A stretch of 64,000 nt of DNA from Sideroxydans lithotrophicus. GTDB taxonomy: Bacteria; Pseudomonadota; Gammaproteobacteria; Burkholderiales; Gallionellaceae. Of this stretch, positions 39,442 through 48,820 are shown piece by piece (within the stretch, counting starts at the first letter, position 1; every line of letters starts with the position of its first letter). Position numbers and translations under genes: made by a program. Location of the stretch: positions 124,001-188,000 of the forward strand of contig DYJI01000002.1 in NCBI GenBank assembly GCA_020723185.1, read 5' to 3'. Below the pieces are notes generated by a model, which had not been told where the DNA came from, did no database searches, and saw nothing but the letters and a program-made list of their open reading frames with translations.

Positions 39442-42400
39442 TCACTGCAAGACCGCATCCTTGCCGTAACTGGCGACCAATTCCTTGCTGCTCAGCGGAT
39501 GCGCGAACAGGTAGCCCTGACCGATGTCGCAGCCAGTGCTGCGCAACACTTCCAGCTGTTCCGCCGTCTCGATGCCCTCCGCCACGACGCTGAACCCAAG
39601 CGTCTGCGCCATCAGCAGGATGGTCTTGGCGATCGCTTGCGCATCCGAGTTGTTGGCGATGTCGATAACGAAATGCTGGGCAATCTTCAACTCGTGGATC
39701 GGCATACGTTGCAGATAGGCCAGCGAGGAATAACCGGTACCGAAATCGTCGATGCTGAGTTTGATGCCGAGCGCCTTCAACTCCTGCAACATCTGTTGCG
39801 CCTGCTCGGTATCTTCTGCCAGCGCGCTCTCGGTCAATTCCACCATGACGCGGCCGGCATCGAGCTTGTGCTGGCTGAGCAGGCGCAGCATCAGCGCCGG
39901 GATGTTGCTGCGGCGGAACTGGTAGGGCGAGACGTTGATGGACACGCGCGGGATGTCATGGCCGTGTTTCACCCATTCCGCCATCTGTTTGCAGGCGGTC
40001 GCGGCAACCCACTCGCCGAGGCGGTCGATGATGCCGGTCTTCTCGGCCAGCGGGATGAACTTGGACGGCGGGACCAATCCCTCTGTCGGGTGCTGCCAGC
40101 GCACCAGCGCCTCGACACCGACCAGCCTTCCGCTGGCGATATCCACCTGCGGTTGATAGAGCAGGTACAGTTCATTGCGCTCGATCGCACCGCGTAACTC
40201 GGTCTCCAGTTTCAGGCGCTCGTCGGCGATGCGCTTGAGTTCGTCGGTGAAGAAGTGGTGCGAGCGCTTGCCGCCGTCCTTGGCTTGGTACATGGCGCTG
40301 TCCGCGTTCTTGAGCAGCGTCTCGGGATCGAGGCCGTCATTGGGATACAGGCAGATGCCGATGCTGGCACCAGGGTAGATGTTCTGGCGGCCGATCGAAT
40401 GCGGACGCAGCATGGCGTCGCTGATGCGGTGTGCGGTCATCTCCGCCTCGGCCACGGTCGCCTCTTCGATCAGCAGCGCGAACTCGTCGCCGCCAAAGCG
40501 CGCCACGGTGTCACCGCCGCGCACGCAGTCGCGCAGGCGTGCGGAGATCTCCTTGAGCAGATCGTCGCCGGCGGCATGTCCCATCGAGTCGTTGATTACC
40601 TTGAAGTTGTCCAGGTCGATGAACAGTACGGCGAATGAGTTCTCGCTACGCTCGGCATGCGCGATGGCCTGACGCAGGCGGTCGAGGAACAGCGCGCGGT
40701 TGGGCAGGCCGGTCAACTCGTCGTGCGTGGCCAGGAATTCCACCTTGCGCTGCGATTCCTTGACCACCGAGATGTCGCTGAAGATGCCGACGTAATTGAT
40801 GATGTTGCCTTCCGGGTCGTTCACCACATTGATGGTGAGCCATTCAGGGTAGATCTCGCCGGATTTGCGCTTGTTCCAGACTTCGCCCTGCCACCAGCCA
40901 TGGGTCTCCAGATGGGACCACATGCTCTTGTAGAACGAGGCATCCTGTTTGCCGGACGACAGCATCTTGGGCGTCTGACCGACGGCTTCCTCGGGCTCGT
41001 AGCCGGTCACCTGCGTGAACGCGCTGTTGACGGTGAGGATGCGCTGGTGCGCATCGGTGACCACGATGCCTTCACCGGAACGGTCGAACACGCGCGCCGC
41101 CAGACGCAACTGGTCCTCGGCACGCTTGTGCTCTGTGACATCGGCGGACTGCGTGCAGATGCTGTATACCACGCCGTCCTCGGTCAGCAGCGGGAAGCGG
41201 ATGGAATGCAGGAAACGTTCCTGCCCGTTGGAAAATGCGAGGTGATCCTCGAACTCCAGCGAGGTGCGCAGACGCACCACATCCAGTTCCTTGGAACGGA
41301 AGTCGTCGGCGATCTTGCGCGGCAACACCTGGGCATCGGTCTTGCCCAGCACGTCCGCCGACACCAGCCCGAAGAACTTCTCGAACTCCCGGTTGACGAA
41401 CTCGTAGCGGCCGGCCAGATCCTTGAGTGCGATGATGGAGGTGGAGTTATTCATGATCGCCAGCAGGATCTCGCGGTTCTTGCGCACATCGCGTTCGGCC
41501 ACCAACCGTTCGGTATGGTCCAGCAGCACGATGATCGCGCCGCGGTTGCCGCTCATTTTCGTCTCGTAAGGGGAGACATGCAGCAGGTAGTGACGCTCGC
41601 TGGAGAAGATATGCGTCTCGTCCACTCGTTTGTTGGCGATCGCGCCCTGCACCGCCGCCGAGAAATCCTTCATCCCGACCGGCAAACGCATACTGGGCAA
41701 CTGCTGCTTGAGGGATGCGTTGGTGAGCGAGAACAAGGATGCGGCTGGGCTGTTGAAGCGCACGATCTCCAGATGTGCATTGCACACGATGATGGGGAAT
41801 CCGGCACTATTCTGGATGTTCTCCAGATCGTTCAACAACTCTGCCAGTTCTCCGGAACGTACCTGCAATTCCTCGTTTACCGTGGTCAATTCCTCGTTGG
41901 TGGATTGCAACTCTTCGTTCGCCGCCTCCAACTCCTCGTTGGAAGATTGCAGCTCTTCGTTGGCCGCCACGACTTCCTCGTTGAGTGCCTGCATCTCCTC
42001 GTTAGAGGTCTCCAGCTCCTCGATCACGGTCTGCAGACGCTCGCGCGTGGAGATCAACTCCTCCTCGAGCTCGCGGACATTTCGCCCCTCGGCGCTGAGC
42101 GGCGGGACCTCGCCATCCCCTTCGCGCGCGATCGCCGGCGGCATCACTTCGAAACTCACCAGGAACAACATACTGTTGATGCCGCGCTCCATCGGATGCA
42201 CGGCGATGCGCACGCTTCGCGTCTCTTCTCCAATCTTTATGGCGTGCGGACGACCCACAGCGGACTCGTGCTTATGATCGGCATGATGCTGTAGCAATTG
42301 CAGATCAGCGCGCAGCTCCCGCCTGAGCAGATGCTGCAGATTGAAGTTGGGTTTTCCGGGCAGAACGAGCAGATACGGGCTGACATCCCCATGGATATGC

Positions 42401-44055
42401 AGGATATCGAATGAGCTGTTCACCAACACGGTGGCCGGCACATAGCGGCGCACCGCCTCGTCCATCAGTCTCGACTCGGAATCCGCCACTGACTTGGGCA
42501 GGATGCGCTCGGAGGTGTCCGGCAACCTGAATGCCGGCACATTGAGGCGCGACTCGCCAGGCATGCGGCGGTAGATCCGTGCGCCCTTGTCGATGACCTC
42601 GAACAATGCCTCCTGCTGGAAGATACCCTCGGACTTACCAAGGAACAGGACTCCACCCGGATTCAAACTGTAATGGAATGTCGACAGTACCTTTGCTTGC
42701 AGTTCGTTCTGCAAGTAAATGAGCATGTTCCGGCAGCTCACCAAGTCCAGCCTGAGGAACGGCGGATCCTGTATCAGATCCTGTCGTGCCACCACGACCA
42801 TGTCGCGCAGGACGCGCGACACCTCAAGTCGATTACCTACCTTCACGAAATAGCGGATCGCCAATCCCGGCTCCAGATCGGCCAGCGCACTCTCGGCATA
42901 GGACCCCTTGCGCGCAATCGCCAGAGCGTTGATGTCGATGTCGGTGGCGAATATCTGGATGCGGAACTGGGACAAGTTTGGCCCCAGCAGCTCGGCCAGC
43001 AGGATGGCCATCGTATAGGCCTCTTCGCCCGTGGCGCAGGCTGCGACCCAGATGCGGATCTCATCACCCGGTCGCTTGTTCTGGATGATGCCTTGCAGCA
43101 TCCTTCTTAACGCATCGAACGACGATGCGTCACGGAAGAATGCAGTGACCGAGATCAGGATGTCCTTGCCCAGGTGCTCCAGCTCTTCGGGGTTGCTATC
43201 CACCAGAGCCAAGTAATCGTCCAGATCGTTCACATGGCAGGCTGCCATGCGCCGCTCGATGCGCCGCCACAGCGTGCCTTCCTTGTAGCCCGAGAAATCG
43301 ATGCGCGTGTGCTGCTTGACCTTGATCAGCAGTTTCTTAAGCGTAGTTGCGGCAATGGGCGGCTTGTTGGTGACCGTGACGCTGCCATGCGAGCGCGCGA
43401 TGACGGCGATCTCCTTGGCGATACCTTCCGGAGACAACACCCAGTCCACGCAACCGGTGTCGATGGCCGATTGCGGCATACCCGCATATTTTGCCGTCTG
43501 CGGATCCTGCGCAAAGGTGTAGCCACCCGCCGCCTTGATATCTCGCAATCCGGCAGCACCATCGCTTCCTGTTCCGGAAAGGATCACACCGATGGCATCT
43601 TCTATCTTCTCTTCGGCCAGCGAAGTCAGGAACAGATTGACCGACGGTCGCGGTGTCGCTTCGCGCGGTCCCTCGATCAACTCAAAACAGCCATCCTTCA
43701 GTTTTACATTGCTGCTGGCTGGCGCGACATAGATCGTGTCCGGCTCGGGTTGCACGCCGTTCTCGACTTCCTGCACGGCCATCGCGGTCTCGCGGCCGAG
43801 CAACTGCGCCATCATGCTGCGGTGGGTAGGGGAAAGATGCTGAAGCACGACGTAGGAGATGCCCAGATCGGTCGGCAGTGCGGCGATGAGTGCGGACAAC
43901 GCTTCCAGACCGCCCGCAGAAGCTCCGATGCCGACCAAATATGGGCGTAGCGGAACCACTGCATCTATCTGAGCCGCCTTCTTCTTCGTCTGTTTAGCCG
44001 TTGACACTCTGGGCGGTTTAGCCACCGCGACCTTGCTCTTTTTTTCCGGAAGCAT
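39442..44055 (-). CDS. CheB-CheR-PAS-GGDEF-EAL hybrid signalling protein
   Basis: A 1537-residue cytoplasmic protein. The ATG at 44055 follows GAGGGGAAAC. Domain order: basic leader; CheB methylesterase without receiver (catalytic Ser in VGIGASAGGLEAL, His in VVLQHLSPTHRSM, Asp in SGTGSDGAAGLRD); CheR methyltransferase (LWRRIERRMAACHVNDLDDY, SAM-binding IWVAACATGEEAYTMAILL, LVSCRNMLIYLQNELQ); a NEEL-rich coiled coil (residues about 655-740); three PAS units; GGDEF with intact RFGGDEFALLIEE; EAL with intact VGVEALVRWQHPTEG and SIDDFGTGYSSLAYL. It could modify chemoreceptor methylation and turn over c-di-GMP in one polypeptide. It lies between soxY and a soxY remnant. Confidence 0.9.
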   Translation of the reverse strand: MLPEKKSKVAVAKPPRVSTAKQTKKKAAQIDAVVPLRPYLVGIGASAGGLEALSALIAALPTDLGISYVVLQHLSPTHRSMMAQLLGRETAMAVQEVENGVQPEPDTIYVAPASSNVKLKDGCFELIEGPREATPRPSVNLFLTSLAEEKIEDAIGVILSGTGSDGAAGLRDIKAAGGYTFAQDPQTAKYAGMPQSAIDTGCVDWVLSPEGIAKEIAVIARSHGSVTVTNKPPIAATTLKKLLIKVKQHTRIDFSGYKEGTLWRRIERRMAACHVNDLDDYLALVDSNPEELEHLGKDILISVTAFFRDASSFDALRRMLQGIIQNKRPGDEIRIWVAACATGEEAYTMAILLAELLGPNLSQFRIQIFATDIDINALAIARKGSYAESALADLEPGLAIRYFVKVGNRLEVSRVLRDMVVVARQDLIQDPPFLRLDLVSCRNMLIYLQNELQAKVLSTFHYSLNPGGVLFLGKSEGIFQQEALFEVIDKGARIYRRMPGESRLNVPAFRLPDTSERILPKSVADSESRLMDEAVRRYVPATVLVNSSFDILHIHGDVSPYLLVLPGKPNFNLQHLLRRELRADLQLLQHHADHKHESAVGRPHAIKIGEETRSVRIAVHPMERGINSMLFLVSFEVMPPAIAREGDGEVPPLSAEGRNVRELEEELISTRERLQTVIEELETSNEEMQALNEEVVAANEELQSSNEELEAANEELQSTNEELTTVNEELQVRSGELAELLNDLENIQNSAGFPIIVCNAHLEIVRFNSPAASLFSLTNASLKQQLPSMRLPVGMKDFSAAVQGAIANKRVDETHIFSSERHYLLHVSPYETKMSGNRGAIIVLLDHTERLVAERDVRKNREILLAIMNNSTSIIALKDLAGRYEFVNREFEKFFGLVSADVLGKTDAQVLPRKIADDFRSKELDVVRLRTSLEFEDHLAFSNGQERFLHSIRFPLLTEDGVVYSICTQSADVTEHKRAEDQLRLAARVFDRSGEGIVVTDAHQRILTVNSAFTQVTGYEPEEAVGQTPKMLSSGKQDASFYKSMWSHLETHGWWQGEVWNKRKSGEIYPEWLTINVVNDPEGNIINYVGIFSDISVVKESQRKVEFLATHDELTGLPNRALFLDRLRQAIAHAERSENSFAVLFIDLDNFKVINDSMGHAAGDDLLKEISARLRDCVRGGDTVARFGGDEFALLIEEATVAEAEMTAHRISDAMLRPHSIGRQNIYPGASIGICLYPNDGLDPETLLKNADSAMYQAKDGGKRSHHFFTDELKRIADERLKLETELRGAIERNELYLLYQPQVDIASGRLVGVEALVRWQHPTEGLVPPSKFIPLAEKTGIIDRLGEWVAATACKQMAEWVKHGHDIPRVSINVSPYQFRRSNIPALMLRLLSQHKLDAGRVMVELTESALAEDTEQAQQMLQELKALGIKLSIDDFGTGYSSLAYLQRMPIHELKIAQHFVIDIANNSDAQAIAKTILLMAQTLGFSVVAEGIETAEQLEVLRSTGCDIGQGYLFAHPLSSKELVASYGKDAVLQ

Positions 44056-44344
44056 CTGTTTCCCCTCGTGATGGACCGTGGCCCCGCCTCTGCCTGCCGG
44101 GCCTCCCTTGCCCCAGTCAGATTCTGTGATCCAATTCACTCAACGCCGCACAACATCGAACTTGATGCGCGCACGTTCTATGTGTGATGCGCACAATAGC
44201 GCAAAACTACCAACGAGGAGAAAGAAAAACCCGTATTTTCTGAAATGTTATTCGGGCAGGGCAACCTGGATATCAAACAACACGTCGCTTATTGCCGGTC
44301 AATTTGGAAGGAATTCGGTTCCGGTACCTGTTCCTTCTGTGTTG
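44056..44344. other. upstream region of the CheB-CheR hybrid gene, no gene seen
   Basis: Part of a 591-bp gap (44056-44646). This part contains the SD of the hybrid gene, no convincing promoter boxes and only shadow-quality ORFs. The right-hand part carries the soxY remnant described separately. The last about 135 bp before 44647 show nothing recognisable. Confidence 0.5.
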
Positions 44345-44646: not shown

Positions 44647-47346
44647 TCATCGATGGAATGCCAGTACGCCGTTCACGGTCGTGGCACTGTTCTGGAAGCC
44701 GTAAACCACCCCGGCACCGGTCGCGCCGATGCCGGTGAACGATCCGCCCAATCCGCCTTGGATCGCCACACCATTGGCAGTAGCAGTGAATGTTCCGCCA
44801 CCACTCCCATCGCCGAATACTGTTTGCTGGATCGGAAGATTGGTGCCGGTCGCCACGTAGTTTGTGCCAGCCACTGTCGCATTCACGCCCACGTTCACTG
44901 TCATGGCGGAAAAGTCAGCCTTCAATGTCGCACCGTTCAGTGTGCCTACATTACCCAGATTGTCGGTCGGGCTGGTACCGCCACCCAGCGTGTAGTTATA
45001 CGTGCCCGAGGCGGGCAAGGTCACTGGCCCGTTCATCACTGGCGCAGCAAGCCAGTGCAGACTGCTGCTCGTGTTGCTGACAGAAGCCAGAGCGGTGTTG
45101 GTCACACGGTCGGTGACGTCCAGACTGCCCCCTTGCCAGCGCCCCCAACTGATACCCGAAACAGGGTCTTTCCCCAAGTTGGTGGCTGTGGCCGTTCCGA
45201 TGGAGATGATGTTGGAATTCATGCTGACTATCGTGCCGCCCTGCGTCGACCCGCCTTTATTCGACCCCATATCGAAGCGCGTCAGATTGCCTGCCGCGTC
45301 TCTGATCACGCGCCCTGCGTTATTGAAAGCCCCGTTGATGTCGTAATAACTGCTGCCGCTGCTGGAGACGCCGAGAGGGTCGTACCTTGAGATCGCCACC
45401 AGTTGGTACGGCGTAGCCAGATTCACCGTCGTCGCGGGCGAGCCGTTGAAAGTTTCAAGCCTGAACGCTGCGGCACCGCTGATACTTTGCGCCAGAGTGT
45501 CGCTGAAGTAGTACTGCAGGAATGCGCCGTTGATGCCATTGCCGGTGATCTGCCCGGAAATATAACCCTGCCCCGAATTCGTTCCGTCCATGACGATATT
45601 CAAGGTGCCACCACCGTAGGTATCAAAATGCGAGCGGGAATTACCCACGCCGCTATTGGATGTCAGCGGCATCCCGGTGGCTGCGGCTGTCCAGCTGTGT
45701 CCGCCGCCGCTTACCGCAAGATTCGCCCCCACGGATTGATTGGTGAAATTCACCGACAGGCTGGCCGAGCCAATAGCACCGGTCACCCCTGCCTGTGTGA
45801 CTGGGACGGTTCCGCCGTCGAATACATAAGTCGCGGTACCGACCAATGCTTCCGGCAAGTAGAAGGGATTCACACCGGGCCCGGTGATCCAGCTTCCGTA
45901 GCCGCCGGAGAATGTCTGGGTGAACGAAGTTGAAGGCGAGCCTGCGTACGAAATGGTAGTGGTCAGTGTCGGCACTACGGCATAGCGTCCGTACTTGATC
46001 CCTGTGGAAGTCACACTATTCGCAGCGCCCGTCACGGCACCTGTTGCACCTGTCAAAGTATAGGTCGCCCCCGTACTGCACGGTGGCACTGAACAAGTGC
46101 CTCCCCAAGTCACCGTGAAGCTCGGATCGGTTGCTAACGGAGAGATGGCACTCGGCAAGGTTTCAAAATTGTATGGCTGCCAAAAGGAGGTGAGCATCAA
46201 ACTATCCGTAACCAACAATGAAGTGACCACATAAGGATTCGTCACCGGCGTCGTCACCAGCGTGTTCAATGTCGTGGTCGTCCCCTCCTGCAATAGTGTC
46301 TGTGTGGTGGAATTCAATGTGGCACCGGTAGTGGAATTGACCAGCACGACAGGAACGAGCAACGGCGGTGGAGCGATAGCTGGCAACGGTTGCAGAGCAC
46401 CGACCGGCGGAGGGGGCATTAAAGCACCGGGACGCACAGGTGCAGCATCAGCTGCTGCGGTCCTGATCGGAGCAGGACCGGCCGCCCCCTTTGGCGCACG
46501 CTCACCAGCCCCTTCCCGACTCTGCTTCCCCTCCCCGTTCTGGGGCGGTTGGTCGCCATCGTTTCGCGCCTGTTTTGCATCACCCTCCTGTGGCTTTTTT
46601 CCGCCATCCTGCTGCCCCGAAGCGCCTTGCCCCGTTTTGCCGGCATCACCTTCTTCATTCTCCTTGACGGTTTTGCTTGGTGCTGCAGCTACCGTGAAGA
46701 TATTGGTATTGATCGGAGCCAATACAGGCAGCGCATTCAGTCCGCTTGAAAAACCCATCTGATTCGGCAGCACATTTACAGTGCCCAAGTTCGTCGTGAG
46801 CGTCGTTTCACCCACGTTCACTTTGCTATATGTCCCCGGCGGTGGACCGGGGGGCGGGCTGCCGGCGGGACCGCCGACCGGTCCCAAAGGAGGCACAACA
46901 TATGATTCGTGATCGGTACCACGGATACCGATAGTGGCCGATGGTGTCTTGATGCTGTAGTTGTGCTTGTTCTTGGATCCGATCAGGCCGGTCACCGCCC
47001 TGAAGCCGCCCTTGAGCAAGGAGAAGATGCTGCGCTCACTGCCGTCCTGCTTGCCTTTGAATATGAACTGGTCGAACTTCATCTGCGTATTCGGGCGGAT
47101 CGCGACAAAGCCGCCATCCAGCATCTTGATCTGCGCCGAAGATGACACCGCAGTGGAGATGAAGTCCCCCTCGGACACCCTGTCGCCCTTCCTCAGGACT
47201 CGTGTCACACCCTCAGTCGTGACCTTCACATTGCCGTGTACGAACTGGACACTGCCCGCCACGGACGCTTCTGCCGCTTGAGTAGAAAGCATCAGACTGG
47301 CCGATGCGAAGGCCAGAAGGAATTTGATTTGCCTGGTGATATTCAT
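44647..47346 (-). CDS. large secreted FecR-domain protein with tandem C-terminal TbpB-like barrel repeats
   Basis: An 899-residue exported protein. The ATG at 47346 has GAGG at 6 bp. Signal peptide: IKFLLAFASASLMLSTQAAEA, with no lipobox. Residues about 30-150 are a FecR domain (VQFVHGNVKVTTEGVTRVLR, LLKGGFRAVTGLIGSKNKHN, TPSATIGIRGTDHE). A Gly/Pro/Lys-rich low-complexity linker follows (GASGQQDGGKKPQEGDAKQA). The C-terminal 450 residues are Gly/Ser/Thr-rich beta structure. They contain two related units ending ISGQITGNGINGAFLQYYF...GAAAFR and IQGGLGGSFTGIGATGAGVV...GVLAFHR, a pattern like the TbpB-type barrel of type XI secretion cargo. It lies 34 bp downstream of a DUF560-like outer-membrane gene. 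FecR is confident; the cargo role is inferred. Confidence 0.7.
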   Translation of the reverse strand: MNITRQIKFLLAFASASLMLSTQAAEASVAGSVQFVHGNVKVTTEGVTRVLRKGDRVSEGDFISTAVSSSAQIKMLDGGFVAIRPNTQMKFDQFIFKGKQDGSERSIFSLLKGGFRAVTGLIGSKNKHNYSIKTPSATIGIRGTDHESYVVPPLGPVGGPAGSPPPGPPPGTYSKVNVGETTLTTNLGTVNVLPNQMGFSSGLNALPVLAPINTNIFTVAAAPSKTVKENEEGDAGKTGQGASGQQDGGKKPQEGDAKQARNDGDQPPQNGEGKQSREGAGERAPKGAAGPAPIRTAAADAAPVRPGALMPPPPVGALQPLPAIAPPPLLVPVVLVNSTTGATLNSTTQTLLQEGTTTTLNTLVTTPVTNPYVVTSLLVTDSLMLTSFWQPYNFETLPSAISPLATDPSFTVTWGGTCSVPPCSTGATYTLTGATGAVTGAANSVTSTGIKYGRYAVVPTLTTTISYAGSPSTSFTQTFSGGYGSWITGPGVNPFYLPEALVGTATYVFDGGTVPVTQAGVTGAIGSASLSVNFTNQSVGANLAVSGGGHSWTAAATGMPLTSNSGVGNSRSHFDTYGGGTLNIVMDGTNSGQGYISGQITGNGINGAFLQYYFSDTLAQSISGAAAFRLETFNGSPATTVNLATPYQLVAISRYDPLGVSSSGSSYYDINGAFNNAGRVIRDAAGNLTRFDMGSNKGGSTQGGTIVSMNSNIISIGTATATNLGKDPVSGISWGRWQGGSLDVTDRVTNTALASVSNTSSSLHWLAAPVMNGPVTLPASGTYNYTLGGGTSPTDNLGNVGTLNGATLKADFSAMTVNVGVNATVAGTNYVATGTNLPIQQTVFGDGSGGGTFTATANGVAIQGGLGGSFTGIGATGAGVVYGFQNSATTVNGVLAFHR

Positions 47347-47380
47347 CATCAACCTCATTCAAGAATGTTGCGCGCGCAAA

Positions 47381-48820
47381 CTATTTAAAATCCCTGCGTA
47401 CCGTCATGGATGCATCGACACGATCAAAACTGTAAATGGCTATGTTGGATCTGTTGCGCGAGTAACCAACCTGGGGGCGGAAGGTCCATAGCTGTGCAAA
47501 ATGCCAGTTGGCACCCAATGTTGCGTCGGACTGCTTGTCATCGCGCTTGGCCAGGAAAGCAAGATTCTCTTTGTCATACCGCCCCCTCTGATAACCGACA
47601 CTGGCAAACACCTCGACCGCTTCGCCGAATGGAGTTTGTCCGCCGAGCCTAAGGCCATAGCCGGTTTTGCTTCCGTCAGCCCGGTCATGTACCGCGCCTT
47701 CTTTTAGTCCATTGATACTGACAAACAATGCGGATCTTCCATCGTCCAGGATATGCAGCATCCCCGCACCAATGACTACTTGATTGAAATCGTTCACTCG
47801 ATAGGTAGGGTCCGAATATCGATTCTTCCCGTATTGCCCAAACACACTGAACTGGTTCTTTGGATCGAAATTGTGCTGCCATCCCCCTGTGAACCCGTAG
47901 GAATTCCTGTTCTTCAGGTGTGCCTGCTCATAGAATCCCCAAGTGATTCCCAGTCGGAAAACTTCATTGCCTGTTGCATAGGCAGCTCCGGCTCTGGCAT
48001 CCAGGCTTCCAAAATCATAGGTATGCATCTTGTTATTGTTGCGCTGCCGCAGATCGAGACCGCCATTTACACGCCACCGGTCGTCGAAGGCATGCTCAAC
48101 CTCCCAGCCTGTTGCGCCCATATAGTAAGTTGCTGGCGTTTTCAGACTGGTGGGACTCAAAGTGAATACCAAATCACCGAACGCGGGGATGGCCACATCC
48201 GATTGGCTGGTGGAGTTATTGACGTTCGTGTCACGGCCGATCGTCCCCTCCACATAGGCTGAATAACGCGTCCTCTTTGCCTCCTCGGCCGAGTCGATCG
48301 CCGCAAGATATTTCTCGATGGTGATACGCGCGGCTTCCGGCGGCTCCTGCTTCATCACCATTTCCAGTTCAGTCTTGGCACGGGGAAGATCACCCAGATG
48401 GAAATACGCTCGAGCCATATCCAGTCGCGCACCCGCGAAATTCGGATCGACCGCCAAAACACGTTCCAAGGCAAGCGTTGCCTTGTCCGGATGGCCGCTA
48501 TCCAGCGCGGCCACACCCAACAGATAGTCGAATTCAGAATTGCCGGAGTATTCAAAATCCTTAGCCTCCAGCAGCTGGTATGCCTCCTCTGCTTTTCCGG
48601 CATTGAGCAGTGCCTCTGCCTCTCGAAGCAAATGGTCAGGCACCTCGACACTACCCACCCGCATCGGATTGGTTGCGTTTTGAACCTCCGATGTTGCAGG
48701 GATCGGTACTGCCGAAAAGGCCCGAATGACCACGCCCCCCCTGGCGTAGGCAGCCTCGTGCATCCCGACACACAAGCAAAAGACTGCGGTTATCAAACTT
48801 CGCGAAGTCGCACTTCCCAT
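47381..48820 (-). CDS. TPR plus beta-barrel outer-membrane protein (DUF560 / SLAM-like, type XI secretion candidate)
   Basis: A 479-residue exported protein. The ATG at 48820 follows AAAGGGG. The signal peptide ends near HEAAYA-RGG. Residues about 65-175 are TPR helices (REAEALLNAGKAEEAYQLLE, ALERVLAVDPNFAGARLDMA, AYFHLGDLPRAKTELEMVMK). From about 185 to the end is an amphipathic beta-barrel starting with the DUF560-like GTIGRDTNVNNSTSQ and ending VDASMTVRRDFK with a penultimate Phe. DUF560 proteins (Slam) move cargo with TbpB-like barrels across the outer membrane. The next gene encodes a protein with such repeats. It is slightly more AT-rich than neighbours. Confidence 0.7.
   Translation of the reverse strand: MGSATSRSLITAVFCLCVGMHEAAYARGGVVIRAFSAVPIPATSEVQNATNPMRVGSVEVPDHLLREAEALLNAGKAEEAYQLLEAKDFEYSGNSEFDYLLGVAALDSGHPDKATLALERVLAVDPNFAGARLDMARAYFHLGDLPRAKTELEMVMKQEPPEAARITIEKYLAAIDSAEEAKRTRYSAYVEGTIGRDTNVNNSTSQSDVAIPAFGDLVFTLSPTSLKTPATYYMGATGWEVEHAFDDRWRVNGGLDLRQRNNNKMHTYDFGSLDARAGAAYATGNEVFRLGITWGFYEQAHLKNRNSYGFTGGWQHNFDPKNQFSVFGQYGKNRYSDPTYRVNDFNQVVIGAGMLHILDDGRSALFVSINGLKEGAVHDRADGSKTGYGLRLGGQTPFGEAVEVFASVGYQRGRYDKENLAFLAKRDDKQSDATLGANWHFAQLWTFRPQVGYSRNRSNIAIYSFDRVDASMTVRRDFK

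Follow-up and report, generated by a model that had tools for sequence, protein, structure and literature searches.

A widespread DUF560 and FecR-barrel gene pair as a candidate type XI secretion system in Sideroxydans and other Betaproteobacteria

Type XI secretion systems (T11SSs) carry proteins across the outer membrane through members of the DUF560 family, which falls into ten clusters; verified cargo is known only from the animal-associated cluster 1, and the other nine come mainly from water and soil organisms, without characterised proteins (PMC8406197, PMC12282271). In a stretch of 64,000 nucleotides from a 2.6 Mb genome of Sideroxydans lithotrophicus (hereafter the window), two minus-strand ORFs at 44647-48820, with 22-34 bp between them according to the start codon chosen, raise the question of whether a DUF560 outer-membrane protein (OMP) and a FecR-containing neighbour form such a pair in an environmental branch (Table 1). 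Among named relatives, those nearest to the OMP are 73-86% identical and come mostly from Sideroxydans metagenome-assembled genomes, so the host is an iron oxidiser of the Gallionellaceae. The pair is bounded upstream by a tRNA-Phe/groEL stretch and downstream by a same-strand gene, 3′ of the cargo gene (39442-44139), whose 1565-aa product reads from its sequence as a CheB-CheR-PAS-GGDEF-EAL fusion. A promoter scan around the two genes gave no excess over shuffled sequences.

Table 1 Features of the gene pair in the window, with the evidence for each.
Feature	Position	Strand	Length or evidence
T11SS-like outer-membrane protein (DUF560/SlipAM), upstream gene	47381..48820	-	479 aa from ATG 48820 (481 aa from GTG 48826)
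Periplasmic TPR region of OMP, aa 64-183	48278..48637	-	TPR_19 E=7.4e-13; helices in AF2 model
Predicted 14-stranded barrel of OMP, aa 186-480	47387..48271	-	14 long strands in AF2 model
FecR-barrel putative cargo protein, downstream gene	44647..47346	-	899 aa from ATG 47346 (903 aa from ATG 47358)
Cargo Sec signal peptide, no lipobox	47266..47346	-	cleavage between AEA and SV, read by eye
Cargo FecR module, aa 33-215	46714..47262	-	PF04773 E=1.3e-9; 35-member alignment, 50% mean column identity
Cargo low-complexity Pro/Gly/charged linker, about aa 216-376	46231..46713	-	sequence
Cargo unit A: predicted handle + eight-stranded barrel, aa 377-640	45439..46230	-	repeat test; AF2 model
Unit A barrel, about aa 508-637	45448-45837	-	AF2 model
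Cargo unit B: predicted handle + eight-stranded barrel, aa 641-903, conserved terminal unit	44650..45438	-	AF2; Foldseek; conservation
Unit B barrel, about aa 786-902	44653-45003	-	AF2 model

An earlier note, made from the letters alone, had read the upstream gene as TPRs followed by a DUF560-like barrel that begins with DTNVNN. The ORF is in place, its residues 193-480 match the SlipAM family (PF04575; E=2.3e-10, score 40.9 bits, cut-off 22) over positions 6-288 of the 288 in the Pfam profile, and the motif lies at residues 199-204. When a 17-member OMP profile was compared with five Neisseria-type OMPs of PF04575 using hhalign, the two aligned with 99.8% probability (E=6.8e-29) through the TPRs, the NxNN motif and the barrel. 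The AF2 model (pLDDT 85.9) combines an array of TPRs with 14 long strands, matching the strand number given for T11SS OMPs (PMC8406197). By these sequence comparisons the OMP is a full-length Slam homologue of the DUF560/SlipAM family, rather than a barrel of some other family, an outcome for which the earlier note had allowed. The nearest structure in a Foldseek search with the OMP model was BcsC, a polysaccharide exporter with TPRs, followed by many general barrels, an order to be expected of a TPR-barrel protein from a family that may lack a structure in the PDB.

The downstream protein was correctly anticipated as a partner with a Sec signal, a FecR domain and a low-complexity linker, and the 899 residues given for it correspond to the start at ATG 47346. 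Its signal peptide, read by eye, ends between AEA and SVAG with no Cys after the site; the lipobox Cys that marks strict Slam surface lipoproteins is thus absent from the window cargo and likewise from its relatives, in which Cys motifs sit within signal peptides having AxA sites. FecR (PF04773, residues 66-149) is the sole Pfam match above cut-off. The two C-terminal units (381-640 and 641-903) are related, with 29% identity (blastp E=3e-17) and a Smith–Waterman score of 165 that none of 1000 shuffles reached (maximum 109). Modelled together by AF2 (pLDDT 84.8, pTM 0.85), they are predicted to form two units, each a handle and an eight-stranded barrel, the strand number on which the earlier reading depended.

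The fold comparison agrees with the resemblance to TbpB that had been proposed from short motifs. All of the best 50 PDB matches to the two-unit model are TbpB, LbpB, hemophilin/HphA or fHbp, that is, Slam-dependent cargo or its relatives; TbpB reaches E=1.5e-9 at best, and several matches cover both lobes. TM-scores over the full model stay low (about 0.25), since the lobes are placed differently with respect to each other. At the level of sequence the link is fainter: the Pfam family TbpB_B_D (PF01298) gave no match to the window cargo. PF01298 is nevertheless the family that the units match most often, weakly (3 of 65 units, best E=0.055), an alignment of the 65 units matched a single chain among PDB profiles, that of TbpB (E=0.015), and when the unit profile was compared with a single TbpB sequence by hhalign, the right region aligned, with low probability. 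This gap is closed by locus L202, where an OMP that matches the window OMP is followed by a lipase-like protein that matches both TbpB_B_D (E=3.4e-10) and the cargo unit profile. We describe the C-terminal units as predicted eight-stranded barrels of the TbpB/hemophilin kind. In its own right, the L202 pair (L202:4506-7921), a DUF560-like OMP and then a lipase-like protein with a TbpB_B_D barrel at its end, presents a candidate type XI enzyme cargo.

To assess how general the pairing is, 150 genomes of the order were sampled without bias; 35 of them carry 44 PF04575 matches, corresponding to 43 genes. The neighbourhoods of these genes were scanned with OMP, FecR and unit profiles built from family members, whose scores are not independent of the family, as opposed to the Pfam check, which is. 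A FecR gene adjoins the DUF560 gene in 27 of the 43 cases and, among OMP genes of the window type (profile score >150 bits), in 27 of 30; with few FecR genes per genome, adjacency by chance is expected in less than about 1% of cases, by a coarse estimate. Among 80 loci collected from GTDB species genomes, FecR neighbours the OMP in at least 73, and a contig end interrupts most of the others. Beyond the order the pairing holds in 15 of 27 loci, and Pfam confirmed FecR in distant partners. The two-gene cassette is widespread in Betaproteobacteria and apparently undescribed.

Within this family the partners differ in size and in the number of barrels, from 0 to at least 5 copies in proteins of up to >2300 aa. 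Terminal units are 44% identical between proteins, as opposed to 37% for the best inner pair, and exceed that pair in 91% of 818 comparisons. The divergence of the OMP correlates with that of FecR (rho 0.74), the last unit (0.60) and the first unit (0.28); shared ancestry inflates all three values, and the contrast within one protein is their informative part. Both the conservation of the terminal unit and this contrast fit a terminal secretion signal followed inwards by variable units, an organisation proposed for TbpB (PMC12282271). The barrel is not obligate, given that 14 partners in the 80 loci are FecR-only proteins of 273-311 aa and that several others, in other classes outside the order (L183, L185, L187, L191, L197), have Gly/Pro-rich low-complexity tails and no recognisable barrel. 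Across this OMP subfamily no partner is as constant as FecR, the barrels included, and the present type XI model does not account for this constancy.

The arrangement of FecR and barrels also varies in other ways. The cargo that follows a family OMP at L180 and L181 has three barrel units and lacks FecR. At L066:376-5584, L153, L034 and L157, FecR and the barrel array occupy two abutting or slightly overlapping ORFs, through either a true split or a frameshift; L034 has masked bases at the ORF junction, and the second ORF of L157 retains a weak FecR match.

We consider the DUF560 OMP and its FecR-barrel partner to be a type XI (Slam/DUF560) secretion pair, with a probability of about 0.7. The full-length Slam homology, the 14 predicted strands, the Slam-cargo folds, the gene pairing, the conservation of the terminal unit and the tracking of divergence all argue for it; the missing Pfam match to TbpB_B_D, the partners without barrels, the non-specific likeness of FecR to LapA and the rank of BcsC in the fold search weaken it. 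From the homology, predicted folds, pairing and terminal-unit conservation we infer transport, surface display and ligand binding as follows. The cargo would be exported by Sec, cut by signal peptidase I and held unfolded in the periplasm, where the DUF560 protein would recognise the C-terminal handle-barrel unit. The C-terminal region would then pass the outer membrane through the DUF560 protein, and the barrel units would fold there. The terminal unit would serve as the secretion signal, and the inner units, variable in number and sequence, would be the displayed, ligand-binding part. The role of FecR is hypothetical: placed after the signal peptide, it would most likely act as a stop, in the periplasm or docked to the OMP, and so hold the non-lipidated cargo back, with the linker spanning the pore and the barrels facing outwards.

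That role is suggested by retention modules, which stay in the periplasm and keep adhesins in the channel that spans the outer membrane (PMC13090378). All 35 FecR modules match NF033682, the NCBI model for LapA retention modules, and the window cargo scores 20.3 bits as a whole protein and 25.1 for its module, below the model's cut-off of 50. The FecR profile also matches PDB chain 5ix9 (E=1.1e-5), listed as an antifreeze protein, which we take to be the N-terminal part of MpIBP, an ice adhesin. Unlike the window pair, LapA and MpIBP are type 1 secreted adhesins and use another secretion machine. LapG-type release was set aside, as a search for the LapG protease (PF06035) found none in this genome. 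The NCBIfam matches to Lsa33, LipL45 and retention_LapA were likewise discounted as general FecR similarity, since FecR proteins unlinked to the OMP match equally well or better. For these reasons we suggest only tentatively that the FecR module holds the non-lipidated cargo at the cell in place of a lipid anchor. Just as speculatively, the family might be a large, undescribed type XI branch in which FecR is a periplasmic retention plug, the DUF560 translocon doubles as anchor, and one to at least five TbpB-like barrels are displayed.

The best-surviving alternative keeps type XI secretion but has FecR exported too and active beyond the cell, for instance in binding to a ligand or to wall material, with the protein released or otherwise bound to the surface. 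Soluble, non-lipidated T11SS cargo is known in HrpC (PMC8406197), and the surface proteins Lsa33 and LipL45 carry FecR domains; export of FecR leaves unexplained why its divergence tracks the OMP best, although shared ancestry could account for that, and we hold it to be possible but doubtful. It is improbable that the FecR protein instead senses or regulates from the periplasm, with the OMP as its signal receptor, as in FecA–FecR signalling. The domain is named after that system, and the persistence of FecR beside the OMP even in barrel-less forms would suit it, but the protein has a cleavable signal peptide, not a transmembrane anchor, a sensor would not need long barrel arrays, and no sigma-factor gene was seen in the neighbourhoods inspected. 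Least probable, and very unlikely, is export of a polysaccharide by the OMP in the manner of BcsC or PgaA with the FecR-barrel protein as a matrix or accessory protein, a reading suggested by the BcsC fold match and by the past capture of PgaA-like proteins by PF04575 (PMC8406197), but opposed by a barrel of 14 strands rather than the 16 of PgaA, the full-length profile match to Slams, the Slam-cargo domains of the partner and the finding of no polysaccharide synthase gene beside the pair in the loci inspected.

Read as a type XI pair, the two genes can be set beside known systems. Similar to Slam1/2 with TbpB, LbpB and fHbp in Neisseria, a TPR and 14-strand DUF560 OMP stands beside a cargo with a C-terminal handle-barrel, and TbpB has two lobes, as does the window cargo. 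Unlike the Neisseria cargo, that of the window is not lipidated, has an N-terminal FecR module and linker, and contains units that have diverged beyond the reach of the TbpB_B_D model of Pfam; no TonB receptor adjoins the pair in the neighbourhoods inspected. The soluble cargo of HrpB–HrpC/hemophilin shares the signal peptidase I site and the handle-barrel fold (HphA is among the fold matches), whereas the window cargo is much larger, with several units and a FecR module. In T11SS proteins of Sphingomonas and Psychrobacter, two to three TbpBBD units follow a repeat-rich N-terminal part (PMC12282271), with Pro-Thr or PTD repeats where the window family has FecR and up to at least five units.

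The earlier note had called both the FecR module on such a cargo and the duplicated barrels unfamiliar. The first holds, and the second does not, given the two handle-barrel lobes of TbpB and LbpB and the two to three of the Sphingomonas and Psychrobacter proteins; the novelty lies in the FecR module and in how large this OMP subfamily is. Two T11SS surveys (PMC8406197, PMC12282271) make no mention of a conserved N-terminal FecR module, and no paper joining FecR with DUF560, SlipAM or T11SS was found in the main texts of the open-access literature searched. The pairing supplies one environmental DUF560 branch with a candidate cargo that is consistent and has clear gene neighbours, and it points to putative surface proteins of iron-oxidising Gallionellaceae undescribed in that literature. 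It also makes two questions testable: what the OMP recognises in a cargo whose terminal unit is conserved, and how a non-lipidated cargo stays on the cell.

Further genes accompany some members of the family. In L039, L040, L041, L042, L044, L050, L061 and L064, but not in the window, a third gene codes for a glycosyltransferase with TPRs, from family GT41 (PF13844; E=1.8e-94 in L040). It mostly accompanies single-barrel cargos, usually lies immediately 3′ of the cargo gene and perhaps encodes a cargo glycosylase (compare HMW1C). At L043:5884-7131 and L045:4159-5796, FecR proteins encoded some 0.7-0.8 kb away from a divergent family OMP end in an S74 endosialidase-chaperone domain instead of a barrel, recognised in L043 by a Pfam match and in L045 by visual reading of the same motif.
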